Position numbers and translations under genes: made by a program. A DNA stretch of 32,134 bases, from positions 1 to 32,134 of the forward strand of contig JAFRSR010000355.1 in assembly GCA_017427485.1 (NCBI GenBank), read 5' to 3'. The notes below the pieces were generated by a model. It saw only the letters and a list, made by a program, of their open reading frames with translations, was not told the origin of the DNA and did not search any database. Position 1 is the stretch's first letter, and every line of letters starts with the position of its first letter. Origin of the DNA: Kiritimatiellia bacterium. GTDB lineage: Bacteria > Verrucomicrobiota > Kiritimatiellia > RFP12 > UBA1067. Shown one piece after another: positions 9,767 to 30,602 of the stretch.

Positions 9767-11977
9767 ATGAAAAAACTGTGTCTTGCGGCGGCGATTGCCG
9801 CCAGCCTCGCGTGCGTGCGCACGTACGCGCTGCTCGAAGTGAGCGGCGACTACACGATAACTACAGGTACGATTGACGTGCCATTGGTGTTCACGGGCGA
9901 CGCCAACCTCACCATCGCGGAGAACGTCGGGTCGTCCACGTCCCTCGGCGTGTTCCTCGGCACCGTCACGAACGACGGACACAACGTGACGATCAACATG
10001 GAGAGCGGCTGCAAGGCGCAAGTCAACTGGTTCCAGAACCTGAACGGTGCCACCATGAAGATCAACTTCAAGGGCGGCAGGTTCACGGACGGTGGCGGCT
10101 GGGGATCGCGCTGGTTCAAGACACCTGCGGGATGTACGGTGGAATTGGCGTCAGTGGACGGCAACAACATCTGGATCACGCATCCGAACTCGCAGCACAA
10201 GTATCTCAACGATGGCGACGGGCGCGTGTTCACGTCCGGCTCGGGCAAGTTCCTGGTGCAGACGGCGAACATCCACAACGGAACGCTGCTGTACTTCCGG
10301 GCCAACATTCCAAGTACGAATTATTTCCACACGGGCGGCACAACTTTCTCCGGCAACAGTGATAGCAACGGTGGCTGGTTTACATTCACGGGGAACAATC
10401 AGTTCCCTCCGGGACGGGTGGAGATCGGGCGTGCGGCAAACGCGGGCGGCGCGTGGGTGAACCTCGACGGCAAGTCGCAGACGGCGGAGCAGGTCGTTCG
10501 CGTCGGCTCGTATGGCTGCATCACGAATACGAGTTCCACGGCGGGCACGCTCGTATTCAGCAAGGCTGATTCGTTGCTGGATTGTCCTGTGCAGGGCAAC
10601 GTGGTCGTGCAGAAGACGGGCTCGTCCACTACGCTCACGGTGAAGCGCGGCCCCATCTCCACGCTTGAGTTGCGGGAGGGCATGGTGCTCGTGAAGCCGG
10701 ATACGGCGGGAACAACGGTCAAGGTTGGCAGACTGCGCGTCTACAGCGGCGCGACGCTGACGGTAGACGGGTGCATACTCGAAGCGGATGCGGCGGACAT
10801 CGGCTTGAGCGCGACGCTAACGTGCGTGAACGGCGGCCGGTTGCGAATCTCGGTGGCGGCGAACACGACGAACGTGATGGATGCGGCCAGTTGGAGCGGC
10901 GGTTCGCTGGAGAAGACGGGCGCGGGCACGGTCGGTCTGGGCACGGACACCGCTCTGGCTCTGACCGGTTTCAACGTGGCGGAAGGTACGCTCCGGTTGG
11001 GACGCCTCGGCGTCACCAACCGCTTCTGGCGCGTGTCGATCAAAAGAACGAACAACGGCGGCAAGCTGGCATTGGGGCCGTTCCGCCTCTACGACCGCGA
11101 CAACAACATGACGGACGGAGGTACTTACAACGGCGGCGACGGAAACGGCACCTATACAGACAAGTCCTCAGCGGGCATCTCGGCCAGCCAGCTGGCGGCG
11201 AAACAGTTCATCTGCTCGCGGACGGACTATGAGCCGAACAGGAACCAGAGCGGCAGCAACTATCGCCCGCCGTACGCCATGTTTGGTTCATCAACCGTGT
11301 TCAGCTGCATGTTCGTCAATGCGCCGAGTCCTTCGGTTGACAATCCGGCAAGCTGGGTGGTGATGACCTATCGCATTCCGGACACGTATGCAGTCACTCA
11401 CGGCTACGACCCGAAGTCGCAGTGGGAAGGCGTGAACAACCATCCCGGCACGTGGAGCATCGAGTCCAGCCCCGATGGCACGGACGGAAGCTGGGAACTG
11501 GTCGATGAGAGGAGCGGACAGGCTGCCGCGAACGGGCAGACGTGGTATCATGGCGGAAACAACGGTACGTCGGGCAATCCGTCGTCGTGGGATCCCTACA
11601 CCTTCCAGTCGCTCCGCAGGGGCGGCGGCATCTCGCCGGCGGCGAACGTGCAGGTGGCGGCAGGAGCGACACTGGACGCGACGCTGGTGGACGGCGGGCA
11701 GGCGGTGTCGAGCCTGACCGTGGACTATACGGCAGGCGGCGGAACGCTGAAGGGCGTGAAGTTCGCGGCGGTCGGCACGCTGAACCTCGTGAACGTGCCG
11801 GCCGGCACGAAGCTCTCGGAATACGCGGTGCCGCTGACGTTCGAGGGCGCCGGCGACACGTCGAACGCCCGGACCTGGTCGGTGCAGGTGGATGGCGTGG
11901 CGACCCGCGCCAAGCTGAAGTGGCAGGACGGCGGCCTCTTCGTGCCCAGCGCCGGCACGATCGTGACTTTCCGCTAG
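9767..11977 (+). CDS. Exported beta-strand-rich surface protein with discoidin-like module and FR C-terminus
   Basis: A 736-residue protein of unknown function with a signal peptide (MKKLCLAAAIAASLACVRTYA). Residues of about 25-420 are Gly/Thr/Val-rich beta repeats in the style of autotransporter-associated strands (GDYTITTGTIDVPLVFTGD, SLEKTGAGTVGLG, AEGTLRLGRLG). A module from about 425 to 620 (FWRVSIKRTN, FRLYDRDNN, ASWVVMTYRIPDTYAVTHGYD, WSIESSPDGTDGSWELVDER) looks like an F5/8 type C (discoidin) carbohydrate-binding fold. The end is SAGTIVTFR-stop, matching two other proteins of the window. The SD AAGGAG is at 9752-9757, 9 nt before ATG. It has its own promoter. Likely at the cell surface, perhaps binding or organising a glycan; no catalytic motif is seen. 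Confidence 0.8.
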   Translation: MKKLCLAAAIAASLACVRTYALLEVSGDYTITTGTIDVPLVFTGDANLTIAENVGSSTSLGVFLGTVTNDGHNVTINMESGCKAQVNWFQNLNGATMKINFKGGRFTDGGGWGSRWFKTPAGCTVELASVDGNNIWITHPNSQHKYLNDGDGRVFTSGSGKFLVQTANIHNGTLLYFRANIPSTNYFHTGGTTFSGNSDSNGGWFTFTGNNQFPPGRVEIGRAANAGGAWVNLDGKSQTAEQVVRVGSYGCITNTSSTAGTLVFSKADSLLDCPVQGNVVVQKTGSSTTLTVKRGPISTLELREGMVLVKPDTAGTTVKVGRLRVYSGATLTVDGCILEADAADIGLSATLTCVNGGRLRISVAANTTNVMDAASWSGGSLEKTGAGTVGLGTDTALALTGFNVAEGTLRLGRLGVTNRFWRVSIKRTNNGGKLALGPFRLYDRDNNMTDGGTYNGGDGNGTYTDKSSAGISASQLAAKQFICSRTDYEPNRNQSGSNYRPPYAMFGSSTVFSCMFVNAPSPSVDNPASWVVMTYRIPDTYAVTHGYDPKSQWEGVNNHPGTWSIESSPDGTDGSWELVDERSGQAAANGQTWYHGGNNGTSGNPSSWDPYTFQSLRRGGGISPAANVQVAAGATLDATLVDGGQAVSSLTVDYTAGGGTLKGVKFAAVGTLNLVNVPAGTKLSEYAVPLTFEGAGDTSNARTWSVQVDGVATRAKLKWQDGGLFVPSAGTIVTFR

Positions 11978-12011
11978 AGAGGAAACCTTGGACTTCTGGA
12001 AAGTCTCCCTT

Positions 12012-12063: not shown

Positions 12064-12089
12064 ACGGCTAAAAAGTGGCAGGAATAGAC

Positions 12090-13745
12090 ATGGCAAAGCA
12101 GAAAGCAAACGCCGATGGATTCGGCAAGTTCAAGTTCGAGCTGACGGGCGTCGGCTCGCGGGTGGTCGTGATTCCGGAACACATCACCCTTGACAAGGTG
12201 CACGAACTCGTGCAGGGGCTCTTTCACTGGGAAAATTACCATCTGTGGGAATTCCAGGACGGCGCAGGACGAAATTTTGGGCACAAAGGCGATACCGAAT
12301 GGATATCGCCATCGGACGAGCGGCTTATTTCGCCGTCGAAGGTCTGTCTTTCCGACGTTCTGCCGGAGCGTGGCGGGAAACTCCGCTACACGTATGATTT
12401 CGGCGACGACTGGCGGCACGTGATCACGCGTATGGCGGATCCGAAGACGCCGGGCATCTACTGCGTGAAGACGGAGGGGCCTGACGGCATTGAGGACATC
12501 GGCGGCGTGTGGGGGCTTCAGTGCTGCAAGGAGGATTGGCACGTGCCGGACGTCGCCGAGATCACGAAGCGGCTGGCGCGCATCAGGTTCAACCCGAAAA
12601 AGTCCGGCACGGGACTCCTGAAGAAAGAGACTGAAGAGCTGGATGCCGTCATCAAGTCGTTGAACGACTTTGAATGGGAGTGGTTGTGCCAGCTCGGGGA
12701 AAAGGGCTTCGCCCGGATGTGGCGCAAGAACGAACGCCTTGAACAACTCGTCAGCCTCTTGCCCGGTATCAGGTATCTCAAGATGTCGTCCGCTATGTGG
12801 GGCGGAGACACCTATGATGCCGAACCAGAATTCCGTCGCTATTGGCGCAAGATGCGCGACACATGGGCGCAGATGCGCGCTCTGCCGGACGAAGGTGTGC
12901 AGGCCTTGCACGAACCTCCGAGCGACGTTCAGGACGAGATATACGACTTCGCCTGCGCGGCGGCATGCCTTTACGGGGCGGTAGGGGAATCCGACCTTTG
13001 CGAGCTGTTTGACAAATGGCGCGGAGAGGCGGATTGGCTGAAGAATGCCACGAAGGAAACGGCGTCCTACGCCCTGCAGCTTGTGCGGAGGAAGATGTTC
13101 GCCAAAAACGCGCTGGCCTATGTTTCCGACGGCTTGGCCATTTCGAGCATGAAGTATCCTCCAGACGGCCGCAAAGGCGTGGGCGGCTTTGTGGCGGACA
13201 AGACGCTCGCTGAGATGCTGGAGCGGCGCAGCGGCAAGACACGCTGGTATCCCGAAACGTATGACGATTTCCTCTACTACTGCGATGGCGGCTATGACAA
13301 CTCGAAAGAGTACGACGAGCTGGAACTTTTCATCGTGGGAACTTGGAACATCGACAAGAAGAACCGATTGGATGCGGCGGACTTGGATGACACCATGGCC
13401 GACGTATTCTATGTCTTTTCCACGGGGCGTGGATGTCAGGCTGCCGTTGAGGCGATTCGCGAGCAGTTCGACATGTCAGACCTGTCGTCTCGCGAGCTCT
13501 CAACGCTCACAAAGCTTCTCGTGAACGCCTCGAACGCGACCCGGCATGATTCTAACTGGGGGTATACGCCAAAGGAGATGGCCGCGATGTACGGCGAAAC
13601 GACAGACGTGCCGCCGGCGCAGTATGACTTCGCGGTCAATCCCAATGTGCCGGTTGTCCGCAAGGAAGTCAAGGTCGGTCGGAACGACCCCTGCCCCTGC
13701 GGAAGCGGCAAGAAGTACAAGAAATGCTGCGGCCGCGGGAAGTGA
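12090..13745 (+). CDS. pRiA4b ORF-3-like protein with C-terminal SEC-C zinc motif
   Basis: A 551-residue cytoplasmic protein. The N-terminal part (about 1-175) has the pRiA4b ORF-3 signature: [30 protein letters not shown], broken up as [28 protein letters not shown] and GGVWGL. The middle (about 180-520) is unassigned and helical. The C-terminus is a canonical SEC-C zinc-binding motif, [22 protein letters not shown] 12090 is preferred to the in-frame GTG 12075 because AGGA (12080-12083) lies 6 nt upstream of the ATG. The family is named from a plasmid and shares a fold with transposon passenger proteins, but its function is unknown. It has no signal peptide, unlike its neighbours, and lies 25 bp before the exported glycosidase pair. 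Confidence 0.85.
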
Positions 13746-13770
13746 AAAGGGCGCAAAGGAAGTATCGGCG

Positions 13771-15045
13771 ATGCAAAAAAACGGTAGTTGTTTGCCTTGT
13801 GGCGGCAAGATGAAGCAGTGGATCGCCTGTTGCGTTGCGGCGGTCGCGGCAGTCGCGAGCGGGGGGCTCCGGACGAACGACTATTCGTGGGTGCGCGGCA
13901 CGCACTACTATCCCACGAACGACGCGGCCGTGATCGCGCGCGAGCTCGGCTACGGCAAGCGCGTGGGGTTGAATACGATCCGGTTCCGGATGCAGATGGA
14001 GGACTGGCGCAAGGACCCGAACGGCTACACTGAGAAAATCCGCACGTTCGTCCGGTGCGTCTGGGCGAACGGCTACTGGTCGATGCCGTTCATCTTCAAC
14101 GGAAACCATTCCAAGCCAGAGATGTTCGAAGAGGCGGCCTGGACGGAGTGTGCCGCGTACGCGACCGATCTCGTGACGGCGCTGAAGGACGAGCCGGGCC
14201 TCCTGATGTGGGACGTGATGAACGAGCCGGTCCAGAATCCGTGGATTTACCGCGAGAAGGACAAGAAGGAGCGCCAACGGCGCCGCGAGCTTGTGTGGGC
14301 GTTCACGCGGCGCGCCTGCGCGCTCGTCCGGCGTCTCGACCCCGGCACGCCCCTCACGCTCGGCCACACGCGCGCGTGGGAGATCGAGCCGACGGCGGAG
14401 ATCGTGGACGTCATCTCGTTCCACGACTACGAGCCGACGCGCGCGAAGATGGAATACAACTTCAACCTCGCCGAATCGCTTGGCAAGAAATATGGCAAGC
14501 CCGTCATCAATTCGGAAATGGGGTGCCTTGCGCGCGCGAACCCGTACGACATGGTGCTGGAGGAGTGCCAGCGCCGCAGGATGGGCTGGATCATCTACGG
14601 ACACATGATCCGCCGCCGCTCGGACAACATGCACGGCGTGTTCTACACGGACGGCACGGTGCGCGATCCCGCGACGGTCGCGGCGATGATGGGCTGCTTC
14701 CGCTGCCGCGACACGTCCGTGATCATTCCCGGCCTCGCCAACCGCGAGGGATCGGCACGAAAGGCCGTCGACCGCCTGCGCCGGGCGCTCGCGGGAGTCA
14801 AGCCCGAGAACTCGTTCACGTGGCGGTTCGCGTCCACACGTGAGCTGCTGGAAGCCTCCGAGCACGCGGCGAACCTGCTGGAGTGCTGCGACCTCGTACC
14901 GATGGCGATTCCGCCGACGGCGCGGATCGCGGCCTGGCGCAAGATGGAGAATCCGCCGTGGACGGACATCCGGATCTTTGCCTACGACCTCGCCAAGCGG
15001 CTGGAGAAGGCATGCGAACTCTCTCAACAGGAAGAAGAAAAATGA
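13771..15045 (+). CDS. Exported GH5-like glycoside hydrolase, copy 1
   Basis: A 424-residue (beta/alpha)8-type hydrolase of clan GH-A. The hydrophobic export segment WIACCVAAVAAVASGG follows MK at residue 14, so ATG 13810 may be the start; ATG 13771 has the better SD (AAAGGAAG, 8 nt spacing) and is given here. Putative acid/base is Glu152 in DVMNEP and the nucleophile Glu249 in NSEMG; DVISFHDY lies between them, as in GH5-type enzymes. After the barrel comes a Cys-containing tail (MMGCFRCRDTS, EHAANLLECC) shared with the next gene. Substrate is unknown; endo-acting or exo-acting beta-glycan hydrolysis is the family norm. The stop overlaps the next start (ATGA, 15042-15045). Confidence 0.85.
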   Translation: MQKNGSCLPCGGKMKQWIACCVAAVAAVASGGLRTNDYSWVRGTHYYPTNDAAVIARELGYGKRVGLNTIRFRMQMEDWRKDPNGYTEKIRTFVRCVWANGYWSMPFIFNGNHSKPEMFEEAAWTECAAYATDLVTALKDEPGLLMWDVMNEPVQNPWIYREKDKKERQRRRELVWAFTRRACALVRRLDPGTPLTLGHTRAWEIEPTAEIVDVISFHDYEPTRAKMEYNFNLAESLGKKYGKPVINSEMGCLARANPYDMVLEECQRRRMGWIIYGHMIRRRSDNMHGVFYTDGTVRDPATVAAMMGCFRCRDTSVIIPGLANREGSARKAVDRLRRALAGVKPENSFTWRFASTRELLEASEHAANLLECCDLVPMAIPPTARIAAWRKMENPPWTDIRIFAYDLAKRLEKACELSQQEEEK

Positions 15046-16262
15046 ACAAGATGCAGATGATGGCTGTCGGCGCGCTGCTGGCGGCGGGGACGGCGCTCGG
15101 CGGCGTGCGGACGAACGACTACGCATGGGTGCGCGGAACGCACTACGGCCCGGGCGGCGATCCCGAGCAGCTCGTCCGCGAGCTGGGCTACGGTCGGCGC
15201 GTGGGGCTGAACGCGACGCGTTTCTGGCTCGGCCGGGGAGCGTGGAACAAGGATCCGAAGGGATACGTGGAACGCGTGCGCGCGTTCGTGCGGATCGCGT
15301 GGGAGAACGGCTACTACTCGATGCCCATCCTCTTCAACGGCAACATGATCAACCCGAAGATGCTGGACGACGGGGAATGGGCGAACTGCGCCGCCTACGC
15401 GAAGGACATCGTGCTGGCGCTGAAAGACGAGCCGGGCCTTCTGATGTGGGACGTGATGAACGAGCCGACCTGCAATCCGTGGGTGAACGCGCAGAAGGAC
15501 AAGACGGAGAAGGAGAGGCGCCGCCAGAAGACCTGGGCGTTCCTGCGCAGGGCATGCGTGCTCGTGCGCGAACTCGACCCGGGTTCGCCGATCACGGTCG
15601 GTTACACCACGGCCTACGAGGCGGAGCCGACCGTCTCGTGCGTGGACGTGATCTCCTTCCACGACTATTCGTCCACGCGCGCGCGCCAGGAGGCGAACTT
15701 CGCGCTCGCCGAATCGCTCGGCAAGAAGTACGGCAAGCCGGTGATCCAGACGGAGACGGGGTGCCTTGCGCGGTCCAATCCCTACGACATGGCGCTTGAG
15801 GCGTGCGAGCGACACAAGATGGGCTGGTTTCTCTTCAACCTCATGATCCGCGGTCGCTGCGACAGCGAGCACGGCGTGTTCTACCCCGACGGCACGGTGC
15901 GCGACCCCGCGACGGTCGCGGCGATGATGGGCTGCTTCCGCTGCCGCGACACGTCCATGATCATCCCCGGCCTCGCCAACCGCGAGGGGTCGGCCAAGCG
16001 CGCCGTGGAGAAAATCCACAAGGCGCTGACGGAATACACGTCGGACGCGTTCGACTACCGTCCCTCGTCCGTGAAGGATTTGCTGGAGGCATCGGAGCAC
16101 GCCGCGAACCTGCTGGAGTGCTGCGAACTGGTGCCGATGGCGATCCCGCCTACGGCGCGGATCGCGGCCTGGCGCAAGATGGAAAAGCCGCCGCTCGCGG
16201 AGATCCGGCGTTTCGCCTACGAACTGGCGCTTGAACTTGAAAAGGCCTGCCAGTTGCTGTAG
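15042..16262 (+). CDS. Exported GH5-like glycoside hydrolase, copy 2 (tandem paralogue)
   Basis: A 406-residue paralogue of the preceding protein, aligned over nearly its whole length, with long identical blocks such as GLLMWDVMNEP and PATVAAMMGCFRCRDTS. The signal peptide is MNKMQMMAVGALLAAGTALG. Both catalytic glutamates are kept: Glu141 in DVMNEP and Glu238 in QTETG, where copy 1 has NSEMG. The differences cluster around active-site loops (HYGPGGDPEQ, NMINPKM, TETG, WFLFNLMIRGR), which suggests a changed substrate rather than simple dosage. The 4-bp ATGA overlap with copy 1 implies coupled translation. Identity to a defined GH5 subfamily cannot be judged by eye; a separate unclassified GH-A group is possible. 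Confidence 0.87.
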   Translation: MNKMQMMAVGALLAAGTALGGVRTNDYAWVRGTHYGPGGDPEQLVRELGYGRRVGLNATRFWLGRGAWNKDPKGYVERVRAFVRIAWENGYYSMPILFNGNMINPKMLDDGEWANCAAYAKDIVLALKDEPGLLMWDVMNEPTCNPWVNAQKDKTEKERRRQKTWAFLRRACVLVRELDPGSPITVGYTTAYEAEPTVSCVDVISFHDYSSTRARQEANFALAESLGKKYGKPVIQTETGCLARSNPYDMALEACERHKMGWFLFNLMIRGRCDSEHGVFYPDGTVRDPATVAAMMGCFRCRDTSMIIPGLANREGSAKRAVEKIHKALTEYTSDAFDYRPSSVKDLLEASEHAANLLECCELVPMAIPPTARIAAWRKMEKPPLAEIRRFAYELALELEKACQLL

Positions 16263-16289
16263 AAATCACATATAAGGAAAATGTGGGGA

Positions 16290-16334: not shown

Positions 16335-16341
16335 CTGCGGC

Positions 16342-18015: not shown

Positions 18016-19584
18016 ATGGAAAAATTCTTCAATATAGCGGGGCCATGCAATCCCGCCAAGCACTACATGCTTCCTGCCACGGCGCGCATACCTGGAATCA
18101 TGCGCCTGGTTGAGCGGGAGCAGTACTTCGCCATACATGCTGCGCGCCAGTCCGGCAAGACGACGCTCCTTCAGGCGCTTGTGGATGAGATCAACGCCTC
18201 AGGTGAGCGCATCGCGCTTTATTTCACGGTGGAGAGCGTACAGGCCTACCCCGATCCACACGATGGAATCTTCAAGATCGTGGAGCGTATGCGGTCGGAC
18301 TTGCTGTCCCATCCGCTCTTCGGGGAGCTTGTTCGCGATCCGTCCTCGCCGATTCCGAAGTTGCTGCCTCAGCCGCCCGACCTCGGCGTGAAACTGTTCC
18401 TCACCATGCTCGCGCAGAAGGCCGGGAAGCCGCTTGTCGTGCTCTTCGACGAGGTGGACGGCCTTACGGAGGGCACGGCGGTCACGTTTCTGCGCGAACT
18501 GCGTGACGGGTACATCACGCGCAACAACATTCCCTTCCCGTCATCCGTCGCCATCGTGGGAATGATGGACATCCGCGACATGAAGGCTAAGGTGCGTCCG
18601 CACTCCGAGACGCTCGGCAGCAAGAGTCCGTTCAATGTGATCGCAAAGGACTTCACGCTGCGCAACTTTACTGCGGACGAGGTGCGGACGCTCTACGCGC
18701 AGCACACGGCCGCGACAGGACAGGTCTTCGAGTCGGAAGCCCTTGCGGCTGCGATGGAATGGAGCGGCGGACAGCCGTGGCTCGTGAACGCGTTGGCGAG
18801 CGAGTGCGTGGAGGCGATTCACGACTTCCGCTACGACGAGCCGATCACGGCGGCGGACATCGAGACGGCGAAGGAGGCGATCATCCGCCGCCGCGACACG
18901 CATGTGGATAGTCTCATGGACCGTCTTCGCGAGCCGCGCGTGAGGCGTATCGTGGAGCCTGTCATCCTTGGCGAGCAGCTGGGAGAGGTCTCCGTCAACG
19001 ACGAGGACTACCGCTACGTGCAGGACCTTGGCCTTCTCAAGGAGGTCAAGGGCGTGCTGGTTCCGTCAAACAGGATGTACGCGGAAATAATCGGGCGCTA
19101 CCTCTCGCGCGATGAGCAGACGCGCATGGTGCAGTCCATCCCGCAGACGCCGTGGGCGACGGCGGACGGTCTTGACATGCCGGGCCTCATGGCGGCGTTC
19201 CAGAAGTTCTGGCGCGAGAACAGCGAGGCGGACCGCCGCGCCTACGAGTACGGCGAGGCCACGCCGCATCTCGTCCTGATGGCGTTCCTCCAGCGCGTCA
19301 CGAACGGCAACGGGCACATCCGCCGCGAAATGGCGCTTGGATCGAAGCGCCTCGACCTCTGCGTGGAATACGGCGGCCACCGTTATGCCGTGGAGGTGAA
19401 GACGGCCAGAAATTTTGCGGGCGAAGACTCCTACAGACAACTTGCCGGCTATCTTGACAAGTTGGGCCTGACCGAGGGCTGGATGCCGATATTCGACGAG
19501 GACAAATCGAAGCCGTGGGACGAGAAGATCTACTCCCGCGACGAAACCGTTGACGGCAAGACCATCCATGTCATCGGGTTGTGA
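18016..19584 (+). CDS. AAA ATPase fused to a C-terminal PD-(D/E)XK nuclease-like domain
   Basis: A 522-residue cytoplasmic protein. The N-terminal ATPase (about 20-330) resembles the AAA_35-type group: Walker A HAARQSGKTT with Lys48 (the first Gly replaced by Ala), Walker B LVVLFDEVDGL with Asp145-Glu146, sensor-like VAIVGMMDIRD, and WSGGQPWLVNALA. A C-terminal segment has the restriction-fold core LDLCVEYGGHRYAVEVKTAR with Asp447, Glu460 and Lys462. This two-domain architecture is widespread in Bacteroidetes and PVC genomes, often in many copies, and its role is unknown; DNA transactions or defence are possibilities. It heads a run of four genes with short gaps, the next (an exported surface protein) 15 bp away. 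GGAAAGG precedes ATG 18016. Confidence 0.85.
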   Translation: MEKFFNIAGPCNPAKHYMLPATARIPGIMRLVEREQYFAIHAARQSGKTTLLQALVDEINASGERIALYFTVESVQAYPDPHDGIFKIVERMRSDLLSHPLFGELVRDPSSPIPKLLPQPPDLGVKLFLTMLAQKAGKPLVVLFDEVDGLTEGTAVTFLRELRDGYITRNNIPFPSSVAIVGMMDIRDMKAKVRPHSETLGSKSPFNVIAKDFTLRNFTADEVRTLYAQHTAATGQVFESEALAAAMEWSGGQPWLVNALASECVEAIHDFRYDEPITAADIETAKEAIIRRRDTHVDSLMDRLREPRVRRIVEPVILGEQLGEVSVNDEDYRYVQDLGLLKEVKGVLVPSNRMYAEIIGRYLSRDEQTRMVQSIPQTPWATADGLDMPGLMAAFQKFWRENSEADRRAYEYGEATPHLVLMAFLQRVTNGNGHIRREMALGSKRLDLCVEYGGHRYAVEVKTARNFAGEDSYRQLAGYLDKLGLTEGWMPIFDEDKSKPWDEKIYSRDETVDGKTIHVIGL

Positions 19585-19599
19585 AAAGGAGTCATGGAG

Positions 19600-22500
19600 A
19601 TGAAGAAACGCGTTTGTGTAACGGTCGTCATATTGGGGAGCATTGTCAGCGCGGACATGGTCGTCGGCAATTTGTCGCGCGCGAGCGTGACGAACGGCAC
19701 GCTGGGCGAGACGCTCGTTGCTGCGCCGCTGGCGTCGTCGATCGACAAGATCGGCGCGGGAACCTATTCGCTTTCCGCGGAACAGGTGCGCGCGCGCTCG
19801 GAACTCGGCGTGAACGTGCATCAGGGAACGCTGGTCTTTTCGGACGCCAGCGGCGACATCCCGTCCGTGACCGCGCCGCCCGCCGTGATGGACGCGGCGG
19901 TGCTCTGGCTCGAGGCGAGCACGAACGTGGTGGCGGACGCCGACGGCTACGTGACGAAGTGGTATGACGTGCGCGAGACGCAGAGCGCGGGCACGTGGGG
20001 AGCAACGCGCTACCGTGGCGTCTCCGCCGTCATCGCCGACATCGAAGGGGCCACGAATCCTGTCATGCGCGTGAACGCCGCCGGGCAGCCGATGGTCTAT
20101 TTCAACGGCAGGCAGAGCGGGTCGTACATGACGTTCCAGAAGCCGAATGGCGCCGGTGTGGAAGACATCGGGAACATCTATCATGTGTTCCAGGTGCTCT
20201 GCATCTCCAACAGCCTGGGCTATGCGCTCGGCAACCGGTCCAGTGCAGACGGGATTGCCTACTTCCATCCGCAGAACACCGATGGAACCTTGGGCTACCA
20301 TCTCGACCCGAATGGCACGGTGGATCCGTCTGTGTCCGGCGGAAGGGCCTATTTGGACGGCGTCTACACGGACATGGCCGCCACGTCGGCTACCCGCGGC
20401 ATGCATCTGACGGAATACCAGATGACGGAGGCGCGCGCCGCGAAGGTGGGAAGGTTCTTCTGCGACCGGGGCATGGGCGGCGGCACCTACAAGCGTTCAG
20501 GCGGCGACTACATCGGCGAGGTCGTTCTCTTCACGAATCGTCTGGACGAGGCGGATCGGCTCGCGGTGGGCGAGTATCTGCTGAAGAAATGGGTGAGTCC
20601 CGTGCCGCATGTGCCGTTATCCGTCAAGACCGCGTCGGGCGCCGCCGCGCAGGTCTCGGCAGATGCAGGCGTCACGACCGCGCCAATCCACGCGATGGGC
20701 GCAGGAACCTTCGTGAAGGACGGCGCGGGGACGGTTGCGCTCGTCGCGCCCGCATACGGTTCTGGCGTTGCGGCAGAGGTGCGCGTGGACGCCGGCGACG
20801 TGCGCACCGACCTTGCCGTGGTGGACGTGGCGGTGCGCGCGGGCGACGCCTACGTAAAGGCAGGCGTGAACGGCAACGAGCGCAGGATTTCCCGCGCGGC
20901 GGCGCCGGCAGGCGAGTTTTCCGTCTCGGGCGGCGTGTGGCGCGTCTCCGAGGTGCCGGTTGGCGTCAAGAAGCTCACGGCCACGGCGGACGAACTTGTG
21001 CTGGCGGGCGGAACGCGCGAAGCGGGCTTCAACGTCGCGTCCGACGTCATCGAGGCGACCATCCCCAACCACAGCTTTGAGAAAGGGACGGTCTCCACGG
21101 TCAACCCCGGCTACACGACAACGGTGGAAGGCTGGACGTTCAAGGCGTATACAAAGGCTTCGGTTGGAAACACCGGATACGATGGATACGTCTATCTTCA
21201 GTCATTGCCAAGGGAGAGCGACTGGAAGGTCAAGCATCCATACGGAGCCCCTGACGGCAATAAGGTGTTCATGGGCAAGGCGGGCTTTGCCGCCTGGTGC
21301 ACGGTGAACGTGCCGACGGGCGGCATCTACGAGCTGTCGTTCAAGTATTGCAAGCGCGGTGACATCGGGCCGGCTGCCGTGGACTTCGCCATCGTCACGG
21401 GAACGCAGACGAACTGGATCGGTCGGCACTACGCCACGAGCCTTTCCAACTTCCGCGAGCAGCGTTACCGCACGCCCTGGCTGGCGGCGGGCGATCACGT
21501 GCTTTATTTCGGTCACGTGAACGGCACGGACTGTCTGCCGCATTACGACGACTTCCATTTGCGATTGGTTCCCGAGGAGAATGTCGAAACCGCTCCTGTG
21601 CCCAACGGCAACTTCGAGATGGCGAGATACACGGGCATGCGGCTGAGCAGCAATCTCCCCATCACGAATGCCTGGTCCAAGTCCAACACGTTGGACGGCT
21701 GGACGCTCACGCAGACTTCTGCCGCCACGAGCCAGCCGTCCGTGGCGCCGTCGTCGCGCTTCACTCCTGGCTATTTCCGCGAGGCGCGCGCGGTGGGCGA
21801 TGGGCAGCTCGTCTTCTCGTTTGCCGGTGGCGTGGCCACGTCTCCTGCGTTCAAGTTGCCGGCGGGCAAATGGCGTCTGCGCTTTCAGGGTACGCGCTGG
21901 TGCGTGAACAATTTTCCTTTCTGGGCGTGGAACGGCACAACGAGAGTGGTCGGAACGCCCAATTTGTCGGCGACCATGACGGTGAACGGCGCGGGCGAAC
22001 CGGTCTCGCTTGGCACCGTCTCCGTCTCGTCTCGCCTCCCGAGCACGTACAGATTCGGTACGCCGATCACCGTGACGGCAGAGGACGAGCTCGTCCTGTC
22101 GCTCACGCAGACGGTCGATGCGGCGACAGCGGTTCTTGACGATCTGGAATTCGAACGCGTCGCGGAAGGCGACGAGCTGGTGACGAACGGCGGATTCGCC
22201 TCTGACTTGAGCGGGTGGACGACAGGGACTTTGCAAAACGACGCCGACAGTTATCTCAAGAAGTGCAACCTGTTCAGAAAAGGCAATACGGACAACAACT
22301 ATTCGCATAACACGTGCGACGGCAATCATGGCGTAATGATGGTCCAGGCTGCCTGGCTCGAACAGAACATCGCGTTCCCGTCTTCCGGCGTCTATCGCCT
22401 CTCGTTCTGGACGGCCACGCGGTGGGACTACACATACAGCAGCGGCCAGCTTCCGTATGGCGGCAATGCGCTGGAGGCGTACCTCGTGAAGGATGGCGTC

Positions 22501-22950
22501 ACGAATGCGATCGGGCGGACGGACGCCTGTCTCAGCACGAACTTCCAGCACCGCGTGTACACCTTTGCCGTGCCGGCTGCGGGCACTTACACGTTCGGCT
22601 TCCGTTCGCTGAACGGCTGGCCGACGCCCGACGGCGGCCACATTCTGACGCAGCCGACGGGGTATGGCGTCCCGTTCGTTACCTCGGACTGCCATGTGTT
22701 CCTCGATGCTGTCTCGATCACTCCGGCCGGAGAACTCCCACCGCCGGATGTCGATCGCCAAGTCGAAGTGAAGCTCGACGCGGGAACGCGTCTGCGCCTT
22801 GACTACAGCGGCACGGTGGAGGTCGGACGGCTGTCCCTGGGCGGCAAGTCGGTTGTCGGCGTCGTCGACGCCACGCATCCGAGCGGCCTCGTCTACGGGC
22901 CGGGCGCGCTGTACATCCGCCCGAAGGGAACCGTCGTGATCTTCAGGTAG
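19600..22950 (+). CDS. Large exported multi-module surface protein, LamG-like and CBM-like, with FR C-terminus
   Basis: About 1116 residues. ATG 19600 is preferred to 19594 because AAGGAG (19586-19591) is 8 nt from it. After the signal peptide (MKKRVCVTVVILGSIVSA) comes a LamG/concanavalin-like module (about 85-335: VLWLEASTNVVADADGYVTKWYD in part, PMVYFNG, YIGEVVLFTNRLDEADRLAVGEYL). A beta-strand stretch follows, then three tandem jelly-roll modules that each open with an N-x-x-F pattern: IPNHSFEKG, VPNGNFEMA and VTNGGFASDLSGW, as in CBM4/9-like or DUF642-like domains. The tail is VEVGRLSLGGKSVV ... KGTVVIFR-stop. No catalytic residues are recognised, so glycan binding or adhesion at the cell surface is the best guess. 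It lies 15 bp after the AAA-nuclease gene and 45 bp before a CBM-GH protein. Confidence 0.83.
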   Translation: MKKRVCVTVVILGSIVSADMVVGNLSRASVTNGTLGETLVAAPLASSIDKIGAGTYSLSAEQVRARSELGVNVHQGTLVFSDASGDIPSVTAPPAVMDAAVLWLEASTNVVADADGYVTKWYDVRETQSAGTWGATRYRGVSAVIADIEGATNPVMRVNAAGQPMVYFNGRQSGSYMTFQKPNGAGVEDIGNIYHVFQVLCISNSLGYALGNRSSADGIAYFHPQNTDGTLGYHLDPNGTVDPSVSGGRAYLDGVYTDMAATSATRGMHLTEYQMTEARAAKVGRFFCDRGMGGGTYKRSGGDYIGEVVLFTNRLDEADRLAVGEYLLKKWVSPVPHVPLSVKTASGAAAQVSADAGVTTAPIHAMGAGTFVKDGAGTVALVAPAYGSGVAAEVRVDAGDVRTDLAVVDVAVRAGDAYVKAGVNGNERRISRAAAPAGEFSVSGGVWRVSEVPVGVKKLTATADELVLAGGTREAGFNVASDVIEATIPNHSFEKGTVSTVNPGYTTTVEGWTFKAYTKASVGNTGYDGYVYLQSLPRESDWKVKHPYGAPDGNKVFMGKAGFAAWCTVNVPTGGIYELSFKYCKRGDIGPAAVDFAIVTGTQTNWIGRHYATSLSNFREQRYRTPWLAAGDHVLYFGHVNGTDCLPHYDDFHLRLVPEENVETAPVPNGNFEMARYTGMRLSSNLPITNAWSKSNTLDGWTLTQTSAATSQPSVAPSSRFTPGYFREARAVGDGQLVFSFAGGVATSPAFKLPAGKWRLRFQGTRWCVNNFPFWAWNGTTRVVGTPNLSATMTVNGAGEPVSLGTVSVSSRLPSTYRFGTPITVTAEDELVLSLTQTVDAATAVLDDLEFERVAEGDELVTNGGFASDLSGWTTGTLQNDADSYLKKCNLFRKGNTDNNYSHNTCDGNHGVMMVQAAWLEQNIAFPSSGVYRLSFWTATRWDYTYSSGQLPYGGNALEAYLVKDGVTNAIGRTDACLSTNFQHRVYTFAVPAAGTYTFGFRSLNGWPTPDGGHILTQPTGYGVPFVTSDCHVFLDAVSITPAGELPPPDVDRQVEVKLDAGTRLRLDYSGTVEVGRLSLGGKSVVGVVDATHPSGLVYGPGALYIRPKGTVVIFR

Positions 22951-24621: not shown

Positions 24622-24636
24622 AAGCAGAGGAATGAC

Positions 24637-27453
24637 ATGACACGAAAGACATTCGGCATCGCGCTTTGTGCGCTGGGAATTGCCGCGCACGGCGCGGTGA
24701 ACTGGGATGACGCGCTCATCTTCGGGCGCACGAACGGCGACAAGTGCTTCTACGCGGCGGGCGAGGAGATGGTCTTCACGCTCGAGCTGAAGGGCGTGAA
24801 GGGCGAGATCCCGTCCGGCGAGTACTTCATCGACTGGGTGCGCTCGGCGAACGACGGCAAGACGGAGAAGGGGCGCGCGGAGGCGTCGCTCGCGAAGCCG
24901 CTCGTGATCCGCACGTCGCTGGACCGTCCGGGCTTCGTGAAGATCGAGGCGAACCTCGTGGACAAGACGGGGAAGCGCGTGCCGAAGAAGCACATGTGGG
25001 AGAAGCGCGTGTTCTTCCAGGGCGGCGCTGGCGTGGAGGTCGAGAAGCTGCAGGCGTGGCCCGAGCCGAAGGACTTCGACGCGCACTGGGCGGCGGAGCG
25101 GAAGATCGTCGACGACCTGCCGCTGGAGGTGATCGAGCGCGTGCAGCTTCCCTGCGCGAATCCCGGGCTCAACCTGTGGCGCATGAAGCTGAACGCGCCC
25201 GAGGGTTACCGTCCCGCCACCGGCTACCTCGTGATACCCAAAAAGGCCTCCGCCGCGAACCGCCTGAAGGCGACGGGCAAGCTCTCCGGCTACTACGACG
25301 CCCCGGAGCGCTGCCCGAACTGGCTCACGAACCACGTGGACGGCATCGAGATGTACATCAACCGCCACGGGTGCGAGGTGGACCGCGAGCCGGACTACTA
25401 CAAGCAGTTCTACCGCAAGTGGCCGATGCCGCCGGACCACTTCCGCGGCATGGTGTTCCGCGCGCTCCAGATGTTCCGTTTCCTCAAGACGCTGCCCGAG
25501 TGGAACGGCAAGGACCTCATCGCCTACGGCACCTCGGGCGGCGGCATGCAGACCTTTTGGATGGGCGCGCTCGTGCCGGGATTGACGCGCATCGACTGCG
25601 CGACGCCCGCGCTCGCGGATGTCTACGGCTTCAAGTACGGTCGCGCCGCGAGCGGCCTCGGCGCGCACGTGGACGAGATCAACTACTACGACATCTGCAA
25701 CTTCGCGAAGCGCGTGACGTGTCCCGTCACGATCAACGCGGGCCTGGGCGACTACACGTGTCCGCCCGCCGGCATCGCGATCGTCTACAACAACCTCAGG
25801 GGCAGGAAGAAGATCACCTGGTGCCAGGGCTGCACGCACGGCTGGTGGCCGCAGGGCATGAAGAAGGTGACGTTCGAGGCGGAGGCGCAGGTGGTGGACA
25901 ACGCGGAGCTCGCGCGCCGCGTGGCGGAGGACGTGGCGAAGCCCGTGCGTCCCGCGGGCGTGAACGGCCAGCCGTTCTGGAACGGCGCGTCGTGGATGTT
26001 CATGTATCCGCCGTCGTTCGAGTTCAAGAAGGTGCCGGGCGCGGCGAAGTACCGCTTCACGGCAATCGACGACATCCACCGCACGCACACGATGGAGGCG
26101 GCGGAGCCGACCGCGCTCCTCACGCCGATGTGGGGGAAGATTCCCGCGCGCGGACTCGTGACGGTGGTCTGCGACGGCCTGGACGCGAAGGGAAACGTGT
26201 GCGGCCGCGCCGGGATGCGCCGGTTCTGGAAGTCCGCGCCGTTCACGCCGGGCGGCTACAGGCCCGCGCCGCGCTCCTACGCCGAAGCGGCGGCGAAGGC
26301 GTGCGACTTCATCTGGAAGCTCCCCAACACGCGCCATCTGCTGGAGAAGGGCGAGCCCGATCCCTCCTACTCGCTCAACTGCTACCCCGCGAAGATGAGC
26401 GGCAGCGTGATCGGCATCATGCTGGACTACGCGAAGCGCCGTCCCGAGCGCGCGAAGGAGGCGCTTGCCGTGGCGCGCGCCGCCGCCGATTACCTGCTGC
26501 GCATCTCCCAGCCGGCCGCCGCGCCGCTCGCGCACTTCCCGCCCACCTACCGCGGCACCGCCAATACCGCCAAGCAGTACGCGGGCCAGCAGATGCTGCT
26601 CTATCCGGCGCGCGTGGCGGAAAACTACCTGAAGCTCGCGGACGCGACTGGCGATGAAAAGTACGCCATCGCCGCCGAGAACATCGGCCGCACCTACCTG
26701 AAGCTCCAGGGCGCGGACGGCACGTGGTACCTCAAGCTCTGGGAGAAGGACGGCAAGCCCGTGCTGCCGAACAGGGTCTTCCCGCTGGAGCCGCTGGAGC
26801 TCTTCGAGAAACTCTACGCGCGCACGAAGGATCCCGCGTGGCGCGCGGCGGCGGACCGCGCGTTCGCCTACATCGAGAAGGGGCCGCTTACGACCTGGAA
26901 CTGGGAGTGCCAGTTCGAGGACGTGCAGCCGCATCCGCCGTACAAGGCGCTCACGAAGCACCAGGCCTGCTCCACGGCGATGTTCCTCCTCGCGCGCTTC
27001 CCCGGCGACCAGCGCCGCTTCGCGCAGGCGCGCGAGCTGCTGCGCTTCGCCGAAGACCAGTTCGTCTACTGGGAGAAGCCGTGCCGCGCGGACGGCACGG
27101 GCTACCGCGCCGGCACGCCCTGGCCGGGGAACATCTGCGACTGGAACTGGGACTACCTCCACTGGGCCACGCCCGGCGTGGGCGAGCAGTACGGCTGGGA
27201 GATGCCCATCGACGCGTCCAATTCAAAGCTCATCCGCACCTATCTTGCGCTCTACAAGGCGGAGGGCAATCCCCTCGACCTCGCCAAGGCGCGCGCGCTG
27301 GGCGACACGCTCGTGAACGTGCAGAAGGCGGACGGCTCCATCCGCACGCAGATGCTGATGCGCCCCGACGCCGACAACTTCTGGATCAACTGCATGGGCG
27401 CGTCAATACGCGCGCTCGACATGCTGGCCGAAATCCCCCTTGACGCGCACTAA
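24637..27453 (+). CDS. Exported two-domain protein: acetyl-xylan-esterase-like plus alpha/alpha barrel
   Basis: A 938-residue protein with a signal peptide (MTRKTFGIALCALGIAAHGA). After a beta domain, residues about 170-430 form an alpha/beta hydrolase close to AXE1/CE7 esterases: YRPATGYLVIPKK, then nucleophile Ser300 in YGTSGGG, Asp372 in GLGDYTCPP and His401 in CTHGWW, a complete triad in the right order. A beta insertion leads into an alpha/alpha toroid from about 545 (SYAEAAAKACDFIWKL, AENYLKLADATGDEKYAIAAENIG, DNFWINCMGASIRALDML) like those of glycoside hydrolases or lyases of the six-hairpin type. Deacetylation plus chain cleavage of an acetylated glycan would fit, though the second activity is inferred. 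AGAGGAA precedes ATG 24637. The last codons overlap the next promoter. Confidence 0.83.
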   Translation: MTRKTFGIALCALGIAAHGAVNWDDALIFGRTNGDKCFYAAGEEMVFTLELKGVKGEIPSGEYFIDWVRSANDGKTEKGRAEASLAKPLVIRTSLDRPGFVKIEANLVDKTGKRVPKKHMWEKRVFFQGGAGVEVEKLQAWPEPKDFDAHWAAERKIVDDLPLEVIERVQLPCANPGLNLWRMKLNAPEGYRPATGYLVIPKKASAANRLKATGKLSGYYDAPERCPNWLTNHVDGIEMYINRHGCEVDREPDYYKQFYRKWPMPPDHFRGMVFRALQMFRFLKTLPEWNGKDLIAYGTSGGGMQTFWMGALVPGLTRIDCATPALADVYGFKYGRAASGLGAHVDEINYYDICNFAKRVTCPVTINAGLGDYTCPPAGIAIVYNNLRGRKKITWCQGCTHGWWPQGMKKVTFEAEAQVVDNAELARRVAEDVAKPVRPAGVNGQPFWNGASWMFMYPPSFEFKKVPGAAKYRFTAIDDIHRTHTMEAAEPTALLTPMWGKIPARGLVTVVCDGLDAKGNVCGRAGMRRFWKSAPFTPGGYRPAPRSYAEAAAKACDFIWKLPNTRHLLEKGEPDPSYSLNCYPAKMSGSVIGIMLDYAKRRPERAKEALAVARAAADYLLRISQPAAAPLAHFPPTYRGTANTAKQYAGQQMLLYPARVAENYLKLADATGDEKYAIAAENIGRTYLKLQGADGTWYLKLWEKDGKPVLPNRVFPLEPLELFEKLYARTKDPAWRAAADRAFAYIEKGPLTTWNWECQFEDVQPHPPYKALTKHQACSTAMFLLARFPGDQRRFAQARELLRFAEDQFVYWEKPCRADGTGYRAGTPWPGNICDWNWDYLHWATPGVGEQYGWEMPIDASNSKLIRTYLALYKAEGNPLDLAKARALGDTLVNVQKADGSIRTQMLMRPDADNFWINCMGASIRALDMLAEIPLDAH

Positions 27454-27469: not shown

Positions 27470-27521
27470 ACCCGTCAAACCCCGAAAAGAGGAGTGATCA
27501 AGTATGCAGGAGGACTACAGG

Positions 27522-30500
27522 ATGAGAACAATCTTTGCGTTGGTCGCGGTTGCTGCGTGTGCGGCGGCGCATGCGGATTCGCCCACCGATACGGTGACCC
27601 TTACCGGGGAGACGACGATCTCTAGCAGCACGACCTACAATGCGCGGATCACGGGCAGCGGCTCGTTCAAAGTCACGAACGGCGCGACGCTCACGCTCAA
27701 CCACGGCACCAACGACTTCACCGGAGGCGTGGTGGTGGAGAGCGGCGAGCTGTACACCCGAAACGCCTTGAACAACACTAGCACGTTCGCCGGAACGGGC
27801 GATGTCACGCTCAACTGCACCGGCAACAGGAAATGCCAATGGATCTTCCATTCCGTCTTGGACAACAACATCGTCATCAACGGCAATTCCTCGGCCACGT
27901 ACCCGGCAACGGACCAGGTCGGCGGGGGGACGATCAGGGGAACGGTCACGGCCAATGGCGACTGGTACATCGGAAGCAGCGGCTACGATGGGCGCAGCGA
28001 CAGCATGGACTCGGAGAAGGTCGCCTTCAACGGCGTGGTGAACGCGGCGGGCCACAAAATCAGCGTGGCGAGCCACATGTTGATCCGCTTTGGCGCGGCC
28101 ATCACGTGCGACACGCTGGAGGGCCGGTACCGGACCGTCAACAACTCGACCGCCAAGAACGGCGTGATGGGCGGTTACACCTTGAGGGCGGCCAACAACG
28201 TGATCGGCACCATCCGGCTTGACCACCAGAAGGTGTGGTGCTACGTCAACAACGCCGTGAACGGCGCGGCGCTCGTGTTCGAGGGGCAGCATGCCCCCGC
28301 GACCGCCGCTTCCAGCAATTACAGTTCCGAGACGAGCTACATCAACCTGAACCGGTCCGGGGCGGGCTCGTTCACCCAGACGTTCAAGTCGATCTCGTCC
28401 GACGCCTGGCCCCGTGGCACGGCAGTCGGCTACGAGATCCGCAACACGACGGGAACTGCCGCGACGCTCAAGATCACGGGTGCCGCCGACACGTCGGCTA
28501 CCTGCTACGTGGCGGTGAACAACAAGGTGAACGTTCTCCTTGCGGCGCCGTCGACGTACAGGCAGACGTTCCTGGACCGCGCAAGCCTCACGACGGGCAA
28601 CATCACCGTGACGGGCGGCGAACTCGAGCTGGGCGGCACCGCCACGTTCGCGTCCGTTCCCGCCGTCACCGTGTCGGGCGGCGGCCTGCTCGTGAACTCC
28701 ACGCTGGCCGGGTCGCTGGCCGGCGTCAAGTCCGTGGACCTTTCCGGAACCGGCGCGCTGTCCTTCGGCTCCGGCGCGGCCGCGCCGTTCACCGACGCGT
28801 TGGCGACGCTGTCCATCACGGGATCGGACGCGCAGATCACGTCCGCAAGCCCCGTCACTTGGATTGTGAAGTCGCTGACCGTGGACGGGGTGCAGCGTCC
28901 GATCGGCAGGTATACGTCCGCCAATCTCGCCAACCTCGGCGCCAACGTGACGATCCTGGCCGCCACGGGGTCCGGCGGCGCCTCGGATCTCGCGTGGATC
29001 GCGCAGGGCACGGACGAGAAGACGTCGACGGCGGGGAACTGGGATCTCGGCGGCGAGACGCCGGACTTCTCCACGATGCAGTACGTCCCCGTGTTCTCCG
29101 CGGGTTCCCGCGCCCTTGTGGACGGTACGATGTGGGTCGCCGGACTCACGTTCGACGCGCCCGCGCCGGGCTTCGCGCTGGCGCCGCTCAACGCTTCTTC
29201 GTCGATCGCCACGGTTGGCGGGACGGCGTTCACGTGCGTGAAGGCGGCGGAGGGCGCAGCGGCGCGGACGACGGAGATTTCCGTGCCCATCGAGATCATC
29301 GGAGGCGGGAAGGAGCGGTTCGTGGTCAACACGAACGAGACGCTGCGCATCACCGGCGGCATCACCGGCAGCACCCAGCTCGTCACCGATGGTTTCGGGA
29401 CAATTGAGTTCGCGGGGCTTCCCGACTTCGCCGGAGGAATCCGGATCACGAACGTGCACGCGCGCATGAGCGGCATGATCGGCACGCCCGACAATGCGAA
29501 CGACCTGATTCTCGACTGGAAGCGCGTCGGCGCCGCCGGCGTCACCACGCGCGGTTACCTGTACCTCAGCAACACCGTCTGCAACCTACGCTTCGTTCCG
29601 GGCGGCACCGGCGTGTCCGTCGATGAGGACTACCACTGGTTGTCCGTGGCCCCCGGCACCACCAACATCTTCGAGCAGGGGGTGCTGATGGGTTCAAGCG
29701 AGGTGTTTGAGAATGACGACGGCGCGGCGCTTGTGTTCAGGAAAGGGCGTACTACAATTGGCCTTGGCACGGGGAGCGACTATACGCTGCGTTTCAGGAA
29801 CCTTCACACGAAGGGAAATGCGTACGGCCCAGCCGTCTTCCGCTTCGAGGGACCGCTCTCCCTTGTCGGAAACGGCGGCACGAAGCGCAGCCTTGCGATT
29901 GACAGCGAAAACATGAAGGTTGAGTTTGCCTGTACGGGGAACTGCATGTCCGGCGGTTTCCAAGTGGCAAACAACGTCGTCTATGAAACGCTGGTGGACG
30001 ATGCGCTGACGACGAACGCATGGTTCAGGAGTTCGGGCACCGGGTCTCTCCTCCTGGGCTCGACCCATCAGCAGATCGGCTACCTGAACGATTGCAGGGG
30101 GCTGACGATCAGCGGCACGTATCCCGCCACGCTCGAGATGAGGGCGGGCGGCACGTCCGCCGAAACCAGCTCGAAGTGTCTTTACCAGACGAAGTTCTCC
30201 GGATGGGTGGGGCTTGCGGTGAACACGATCGCGAAGGACAACATCTGCCAGCTGACCGGCGTGAAGAGCGCGTCGTACGGCGACATCACCGTCACGCGCG
30301 GCGTGCTGGCGTTCAACGCGGCGTCGTCGTGGCTCAACGGCACGAACGTGACGGTTGGCGCGGAGGGGACGCTGAAGATCGCCTCCGCGAACACGTTCAA
30401 CAAGGACGTCGCCGTGCTGCACCTCGCGGAGGGCGGCACGATCGACATCCCGGCCGGCGTCACGCAGGTGTTCGCCAAGGGCTGGCTGGGCAACACGCCC

Positions 30501-30602
30501 CTGCGGGCCGGCTCGCGGCACGCCACGGGCAGCGTGAGCTACGTGACCGGCGGCGGCGCGTTCCGCATCGCCGGCGGCGGCATGACCATCTTGTTCAGGT
30601 AA
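27522..30602 (+). CDS. Exported PATR-like beta-helical surface protein with FR C-terminus
   Basis: About 1026 residues. ATG 27522 is preferred: a perfect AGGAGG (27508-27513) is 8 nt before it and the signal peptide (MRTIFALVAVAACAAAHA) follows; an in-frame ATG at 27504 also has GAGGAG upstream. The body is Gly/Thr/Ser-rich strand repeats of the passenger-associated type (GSGSFKVTNGATLTLNHG, DFTGGVVVESGELYTRN, ITVTGGELELGGTATF, GFGTIEFAGLPDFAGG). Near the middle is the W-x-x-x-G-x-W layout common in autotransporter passengers (LAWIAQGTDEKTSTAGNWDLGG). The end is GGGMTILFR-stop, with no 12-strand autotransporter barrel of usual length visible, so secretion must use something other than a classical type Va barrel. 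It starts a run with an exported phosphatase 20 bp downstream. Confidence 0.82.
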   Translation: MRTIFALVAVAACAAAHADSPTDTVTLTGETTISSSTTYNARITGSGSFKVTNGATLTLNHGTNDFTGGVVVESGELYTRNALNNTSTFAGTGDVTLNCTGNRKCQWIFHSVLDNNIVINGNSSATYPATDQVGGGTIRGTVTANGDWYIGSSGYDGRSDSMDSEKVAFNGVVNAAGHKISVASHMLIRFGAAITCDTLEGRYRTVNNSTAKNGVMGGYTLRAANNVIGTIRLDHQKVWCYVNNAVNGAALVFEGQHAPATAASSNYSSETSYINLNRSGAGSFTQTFKSISSDAWPRGTAVGYEIRNTTGTAATLKITGAADTSATCYVAVNNKVNVLLAAPSTYRQTFLDRASLTTGNITVTGGELELGGTATFASVPAVTVSGGGLLVNSTLAGSLAGVKSVDLSGTGALSFGSGAAAPFTDALATLSITGSDAQITSASPVTWIVKSLTVDGVQRPIGRYTSANLANLGANVTILAATGSGGASDLAWIAQGTDEKTSTAGNWDLGGETPDFSTMQYVPVFSAGSRALVDGTMWVAGLTFDAPAPGFALAPLNASSSIATVGGTAFTCVKAAEGAAARTTEISVPIEIIGGGKERFVVNTNETLRITGGITGSTQLVTDGFGTIEFAGLPDFAGGIRITNVHARMSGMIGTPDNANDLILDWKRVGAAGVTTRGYLYLSNTVCNLRFVPGGTGVSVDEDYHWLSVAPGTTNIFEQGVLMGSSEVFENDDGAALVFRKGRTTIGLGTGSDYTLRFRNLHTKGNAYGPAVFRFEGPLSLVGNGGTKRSLAIDSENMKVEFACTGNCMSGGFQVANNVVYETLVDDALTTNAWFRSSGTGSLLLGSTHQQIGYLNDCRGLTISGTYPATLEMRAGGTSAETSSKCLYQTKFSGWVGLAVNTIAKDNICQLTGVKSASYGDITVTRGVLAFNAASSWLNGTNVTVGAEGTLKIASANTFNKDVAVLHLAEGGTIDIPAGVTQVFAKGWLGNTPLRAGSRHATGSVSYVTGGGAFRIAGGGMTILFR

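Follow-up and report, generated by a model that had tools for sequence, protein, structure and literature searches.

What brings three large exported proteins of dissimilar sequence to stop on similar sets of seven residues? The question is raised by a 32,134-nucleotide (nt) stretch of DNA from a Kiritimatiellia bacterium, hereafter the window, which comprises a whole contig (C314) of a draft genome of 6.30 Mb in 446 contigs (90.3% complete, 7.1% contaminated). A first-pass annotation of the window reported the endings GTIVTFR, GTVVIFR and GMTILFR on the proteins ending at 11977, 22950 and 30602, and read them as a recognition tail; translation reproduces all three endings exactly. Our analysis indicates that this tail is probably a minimal C-terminal sorting or anchoring signal with a putative receptor. 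The proteins (lengths in amino acids, aa) and their tails are as follows.

9767..11977, + strand: tail-1 protein, exported, 736 aa (translation; no Pfam family at E≤0.1; signal peptide by a home-made rule)
11954..11974, + strand: tail 1, GTIVTFR, with the stop codon directly after (translation)
19594..22950, + strand: tail-2 protein, exported, 1118 aa (translation, homologues, fold matches)
22927..22947, + strand: tail 2, GTVVIFR, with RPK just before (translation)
27504..30602, + strand: tail-3 protein, exported, PATR-like, 1032 aa (TIGR02601 below cut-off, E 0.015)
30579..30599, + strand: tail 3, GMTILFR (translation)

With the last 10 residues removed, the three bodies display no convincing homology (best blastp E 0.013) and no single recognisable common domain, which agrees with their initial description as not obviously homologous. 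The tail-2 protein has seven more near-full-length copies in its own genome, and part of its C-terminal third resembles the folds of carbohydrate-binding modules (CBM) 61, 16, 4 and 22 according to Foldseek, applied to the better part of a model with a mean predicted local distance difference test (pLDDT) score of 55.

In what follows, h denotes a hydrophobic residue and negative positions are counted from the C-terminus, −1 being the last residue. Alignment from the stop codon of 63 tails, chosen by an FR end and a preceding G, revealed a common block of approximately P-x-G-[T/S]-h-h-h-[F/L/I/V]-R-COOH with a sharp upstream edge. Information content is 3.33 bits at −7, where G is present in all tails by selection, and 2.77 bits at −6, where the unselected T occurs in 49; the hydrophobic positions −5, −4 and −3 follow with 1.73, 2.35 and 2.69 bits, and upstream the values drop to 0.58 at −8 and 0.96 at −9 (P in 23). 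Within the five residues preceding the tail, Pro is enriched 2.8-fold and Lys 2.1-fold. A looser set of 71 tails comprises the endings FR (60), VR (8), IR (1), LR (1) and FK (1). The penultimate Phe, named in the initial description, is not the core of the signal, as other families mostly carry L, I, V or M at −2; the steadier elements are G-[T/S], the hydrophobic run and the C-terminal Arg.

The tail is under protein-level selection. No pair among the 71 tails (0/2485) is identical over its 21 nt, and both codons and stops vary, so the tail is not a copied DNA cassette and selection acts on the peptide. Within the tail-2 protein family, 36 relatives were fetched (8 from the own genome, 28 from related genomes) and 25 were aligned; R is kept in 24 of these, T in 23, F and P in 19 each and G in 18. 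At a mean column identity of 31%, the T and R columns rank within the most conserved 7% and 5%, respectively. The 11 unaligned relatives include six ending in R, one in K and one in Q, one short partial match (MYGA) without the tail and two that run off the contig. As a separate observation on codon choice in the own genome (G000), the rare Arg codon AGG accounts for 19 of 70 tail Arg codons; its share is 6.3% among Arg codons overall and 10 of 125 among those at the C-terminus of other genes.

Chance is excluded as the source of the tail. Genome-wide, a strict DNA pattern (G-x-h-h-h-F-R followed by TRR, which also lets the non-stop TGG through) gave 51 matches, 50 with true stops and one, on C96, with TGG, against 0 for the control, which for each DNA pattern was the same pattern reversed. 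A broader pattern, G-[TS]-h-h-h-h-[R/S], in which Ser is accepted besides Arg and TGG besides a stop, gave 75 matches in the own genome against 1 in the control.

The tail is, moreover, confined to large exported proteins. Genes were called on 101 stretches (1.35 Mb; 850 genes, 845 without duplicates) by a script based on codon usage, and signal peptides by a simple home-made rule that lets some membrane proteins through as well (e.g. MurJ). Forty-four stretches were chosen for the motif and one (C445) because it holds a homologue, and the window itself was included; 58 picked by contig number, with 399 complete genes, form a near-unbiased set, among which the motif-chosen C213, C218 and C220 are also counted as lying within the number range. 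This set is close to, not strictly, unbiased, in that the motif contigs C24 and C36 were omitted and the range C200–C222 was chosen after the pattern result. Across it, a G[TS]hhhh[RK] end occurs in 5 of 69 signal-peptide proteins of at least 500 aa, in 0 of 92 shorter ones and in 0 of 238 proteins without a signal peptide (Fisher P 1.4e-4), and the looser hhhh[RK] end in 9, 0 and 2 of the same classes (P 3.6e-6). At internal positions of the large signal-peptide proteins, G[TS]hhhh[RK] was found 5 times in 158,515. Over all 101 stretches, FR closes 47 of the 176 large proteins with a signal peptide and 13 of the 553 remaining complete proteins; these counts overstate the frequency, since motif-chosen stretches are included. 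The first-pass annotation named two results that would overturn its reading, an FR end no more frequent among large exported proteins than among cytoplasmic ones and one ordinary domain shared by the three. Neither holds: large exported proteins have the ending far more often than others do (5/69 against 0/330), and no common domain was recognised.

The bodies that carry the tail are diverse. The 71 tail proteins, mostly from motif-chosen stretches, form 38 groups if a homologous match is required to extend into the last 40 residues of both partners, and 46 of the 71 bodies chain via common repeats (E<1e-4). For domain scans, four short fragments were dropped, leaving 67 proteins. Within their last 280 residues, Pfam recognised PATR in 13, Laminin_G_3 in 4 and CBM-like, Beta_helix, Lectin_L-type_dom, Chlam_PMP and Fil_haemagg domains in 1 each; NCBIfam added choice_anch_Q in 2, plus several autotransporter models. 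Other families of the class carry tails behind choice_anch_Q domains, behind NosD-like helices and on a glycine-rich protein (L212). A common C-terminal element on unrelated exported bodies, the feature by which C-terminal sorting signals are recognised as a kind, is therefore present.

On the number-picked contigs together with C199, ten full-length tail proteins match no Pfam family other than PATR, which two of the ten match, and 63 tail-less large signal-peptide proteins match 85 Pfam families, of which the 25 shown are mostly enzymes (rhamnosidase, GH2, GH92, GH32, GH26, GH20, fucosidase and phosphoesterase among them) and also include MurJ. No enzyme domain was recognised in the tail bodies; judged by these domain matches, the tail seems to mark large, beta-rich, non-enzymatic proteins. 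At L203 (G389:C5:94001-114000), three closely similar exported proteins of ~670 aa, each with a GTLIL[IV]R end, are encoded one after another.

The place of the tail is best seen in proteins with the choice-of-anchor Q domain (NF041518), a name that presumably implies a domain preceding differing C-terminal anchors; here it makes up the body rather than the tail. Five tail proteins were picked for this domain, and in each it ends 10–13 residues before the C-terminus (domain end/protein length 1202/1213, 833/843, 478/488, 709/722 and 591/603, the last below the curated cut-off), so the tail occupies the place of an anchor signal. A short C-terminal block on unrelated exported bodies, a Pro- and Lys-enriched lead-in and a position otherwise taken by anchor domains are together what one would expect of a sorting or anchoring tag.

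Across the class, 30 choice_anch_Q loci were mostly of another domain type, and the domain motif was matched in 5: two have tail-like inexact ends (GTLLIIE; GSVFFIRQERLTAP), and in the other three the match lies far from the C-terminus. Twenty further places comprise 8 that stop 77–280 residues on, 3 short ends, 6 that run off the stretch and 3 without a motif match. Two of the short ends, PTGAVIQVR and PAGLTIIAR, are tail-like variants from G177, a genome with no broad-pattern match; the third, SNLRIVP from G412, is not tail-like. Separately, the choice_anch_Q proteins L257 (f9), L259 and L261 (f5) and L264 and L265 (f11), all from tail-poor families, continue for ~100–130 residues after the domain and have alike ends (FYLIKVELAP, FYKVDVQLAP, FYKIGVELK, FYRIEVSIP and FYRVDVQVP, in that order). 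From their sequences, these FY-type ends are perhaps another common C-terminal module that replaces the tail.

Taxonomic distribution was surveyed with the broader pattern, which replaced the strict F-R pattern as the phylum marker because −2 drifts to L, I, V or M outside the genus. Among 59 genomes (the own genome and relatives), the richest have 75 (own), 66, 64, 59, 55 and 46 matches, with controls of 0–3. Family f2 has none in its six genomes of this set, and of its 12 genomes in a class sample of 213, one (G219) has 2. In that class sample, 12 genomes outside the window's order reach at least 8 matches, mostly with I, V, L or M at −2 (matches/control: G110 32/0, G377 32/1, G389 17/0, G412 12/0, G379 11/0, G387 10/0, G429 10/3, G375 9/1, G391 9/2, G165 8/0, G369 8/0 and G192 8/2), and most other families of the class lie at or near background. 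A phylum sample of 288 genomes gave at most 5 matches outside the class (G235, control 2), followed by G016, G131 and G172 with 4 against 0. The tail is thus patchy within the class, and in the rest of the phylum it stays near background. Such a spread, with rich, poor and empty genomes inside a single class, would serve as a clear phylogenetic profile for finding a machine that reads it.

How might such a signal operate? A tail protein would be exported by the Sec pathway, after which its beta-solenoid or lectin-like body would fold in the periplasm. The free hydrophobic strand and terminal Arg could then be bound by a dedicated outer-membrane receptor, which would hand the protein to the cell surface or retain it there; tail-less exported enzymes would stay periplasmic or leave by another route. 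More tentatively, and with rather less confidence than in the signal itself, Kiritimatiellia may possess an undescribed sorting or secretion system that reads a 7–9-residue C-terminal peptide ending in Arg, without a membrane helix or folded signal domain, and that would bring dozens of large carbohydrate-binding and adhesin-like proteins to the cell surface in each genome's bearer.

Several observations weigh against a sorting or anchoring signal. Seven residues are shorter than any other sorting signal known to us. Tails outside the selected set sometimes end in VR, FK, LQ or LY, and tail-bearing genomes also have choice_anch_Q proteins that end otherwise: with at least 340 further residues in G230, with SNLRIVP in G412 and with GTLLIIE in G192. 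Of the three candidate reader families tried, none has a presence that follows the tail. Sortase (PF04203) was found in 0 of the 59 genomes (3 of 14 control genomes matched); SprA (TIGR04189) was above cut-off in 0 of 59 (G300 below cut-off), and 0 of 14 control genomes matched, so that this search had no positive control; exosortase (PF09721) was present in 58 of 59, including all six tail-less f2 genomes, and hence does not follow the tail. Beside the tail genes no recurrent machinery was detected, by a test that sees only families with at least 4 members and not single-copy genes. The best of the 20 neighbour families listed had 7 of 11 members near tail genes against 2.6 expected (P 0.005, uncorrected, as are the following), then 6 of 10 (P 0.014), 4 of 6 (P 0.03) and 3 of 4 (P 0.04); by eye, the enriched families are a sugar-type regulator, an ATPase, a phosphoesterase-like protein and an exported protein, none resembling a sorting machine. 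Of the recognition tail first proposed, a common C-terminal element on different large exported bodies therefore stands, whereas reading by a transporter or protease found no backing among the few candidates tried, as none of sortase, exosortase and SprA follows the tail. Lastly, the tail may be the final strand of a hairpin, as a low-confidence model has it, which also fits a structural role.

That role constitutes the main rival explanation, which we consider unlikely yet worth serious weighing: the tail would close a terminal hairpin, cap a beta-solenoid or pair, in a donor-strand-like manner, with the next subunit of a surface layer or fibre, with no need for a sorting machine. Hydrophobic residues are favoured at −11 and −13, ahead of the P-x-G turn and the strand; a fragment model places GALYI and TVVIF as its last two strands, although weakly (pLDDT ~31); and many tail bodies are beta-rich repeats. 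Both AlphaFold models, the fragment model included, are weak (mean pLDDT 48 and 55, ~22–31 in the tail), and tail geometry was given no weight. What tips the balance away from a purely structural strand is that the tail also follows unrelated domain types, such as the glycine-rich L212 and choice_anch_Q, without an evident common sheet to close, and that the terminal Arg and immediate stop are mostly kept, whereas a plain strand need not end there.

A modified signal for the β-barrel assembly machinery (BAM), in which a G-x-x-h-x-h core would be read by BamA or another Omp85 protein that, at the outer membrane, would thread the exported protein or tether it, appears improbable. Like the BAM beta-signal, the tail spans about eight residues at the extreme C-terminus, and its core fits 70 of 71 tails, though the tails were largely selected on it. 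The published consensus, zeta-x-G-x-x-[aromatic/hydrophobic]-x-[aromatic/hydrophobic] (PMC10945584), contains a polar zeta position that only 23 of 71 tails fit. The hydrophobic residues of the tail are contiguous rather than alternating, and an Arg or Lys follows the last of them; the Omp85 domain of the own-genome BamA, by contrast, runs to the last residue and ends SIGYDF. No Autotransporter match (PF03797, E≤0.01) and no other barrel of a known Pfam family occurs in the last 280 residues of the 67 tail proteins. BAM is universal, whereas the tail is patchy. The likeness to a beta-signal raised in the first-pass annotation thus holds for shape, but not for a recognisable barrel or for the basic last residue.

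Still less probable is a shrunken PEP-CTERM signal, that is, an eroded exosortase substrate that has kept only P-x-G-T, a short stretch of hydrophobic residues and a single Arg. As with PEP-CTERM/exosortase (TIGR02595/PF09721), a short and patchily distributed C-terminal element occurs on many unrelated signal-peptide proteins; the order of its parts is alike (Pro, Thr, hydrophobic residues, Arg), and the near-ubiquity of exosortase in the relatives would permit such an origin. The relatives also include ends such as GEPSTTIIFR and HEPATILILR, which prompted us to consider erosion; this candidate was rejected on the absence of the near-invariant Pro-Glu-Pro (PEP) of such signals at −14 to −6 in all 71 tails (0/71) and on coexisting canonical signals. 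Such signals (e.g. VPEPSSGLLLLIGGAMLALRRRRQK) occur in the own genome on small proteins, different from those that bear the tail: 10 matches were obtained at E≤1, and the five frames listed measure 168–269 aa. In agreement with the first-pass annotation, the tail has neither a membrane helix nor an Arg cluster such as PEP-CTERM and LPXTG signals carry; it has a single Arg or Lys, and its 4–5 hydrophobic residues are too few to span a membrane, compared with a helix of ~14 in the PEP-CTERM definition (PMC1569441). The six f2 genomes combine exosortase with 18–34 PEP-CTERM matches at E≤1 and no tail match; at this threshold 7 of 14 control genomes also matched (2 above cut-off), so that single weak matches mean little. 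As an incidental observation, two of the own genome's three exosortase matches (L070, C103:13000-30000; L097, C381) lie on stretches with a PEP-CTERM-like gene and tail genes within ~15 kb.

Coincidence, or hidden common ancestry of a single terminal domain as the chaining of 46 bodies by repeats might suggest, has next to no chance, being already contradicted by the enrichment over controls, the 38 C-terminal homology groups and the same tail after different domain families.

The neighbouring exported enzymes of the window had been said to lack the ending, which is correct and extends to a GH106 rhamnosidase.

5617..8247, + strand: GH106 rhamnosidase, no tail (Pfam)
8315..9649, + strand: FAD-dependent oxidoreductase (FAD_oxidored), signal peptide, no tail (Pfam)
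13810..16262, + strand: two related exported GH5-like proteins, no tail (the second matches Pfam Cellulase; the first, without a Pfam scan, is alike by eye)
24637..27453, + strand: AXE1-type esterase, no tail (Pfam)
30623..31861, + strand: exported Y_phosphatase3 protein, no tail (Pfam)

In the tandem GH5-like pair (13546-16262), the first gene most likely starts near 13810, not 13546. An AAA_35-type ATPase at 18016-19584 is flanked by exported genes, and a protein with a similar start lies on another contig (L108:2172; AAA_35 match below cut-off). On the − strand, at 2617-5498, V/A-type ATP synthase genes (an ATP-synt_ab subunit, then DUF2764) are divergent from the exported-protein cluster.

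No description of such a signal in this group was found in the open-access literature searched, a scope outside which most subscription journals lie, and a term search of papers on cultured Kiritimatiellales/Pontiella (PMC7356697, PMC6388578) returned no secretion or sorting terms. If a sorting or anchoring role is correct, the tail would be among the shortest bacterial surface-sorting signals; it would point to a novel machine of the outer membrane in a gut lineage that is mostly uncultured, and would make the surface proteome of these genomes readable from sequence.

Compared with further known systems, the tail combines familiar and distinct traits. The C-terminal domain (CTD) of the type IX secretion system likewise marks large surface proteins at their C-terminus, in bacteria with an outer membrane; that CTD is a folded domain of ~80 residues, and SprA, its search lacking a positive control, was not above cut-off in the 59 genomes. 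By letters, P-x-G-T is reminiscent of the LPXTG signal of sortase, which also serves sorting, but the tail is without a membrane helix and the 59 genomes are without a sortase match. Autotransporters (type V) share the PATR passenger repeats found in 13 of the 67 tail proteins, none of which has the C-terminal barrel PF03797; full-length NCBIfam autotransporter models match some tail proteins (best 7e-8), in our opinion via these passenger repeats. C-terminal sorting signals are thus already known, and the tail differs from them in having no helix, no basic cluster and no folded domain; a dedicated machine, if found, would raise its novelty beyond that of a variant within this kind.

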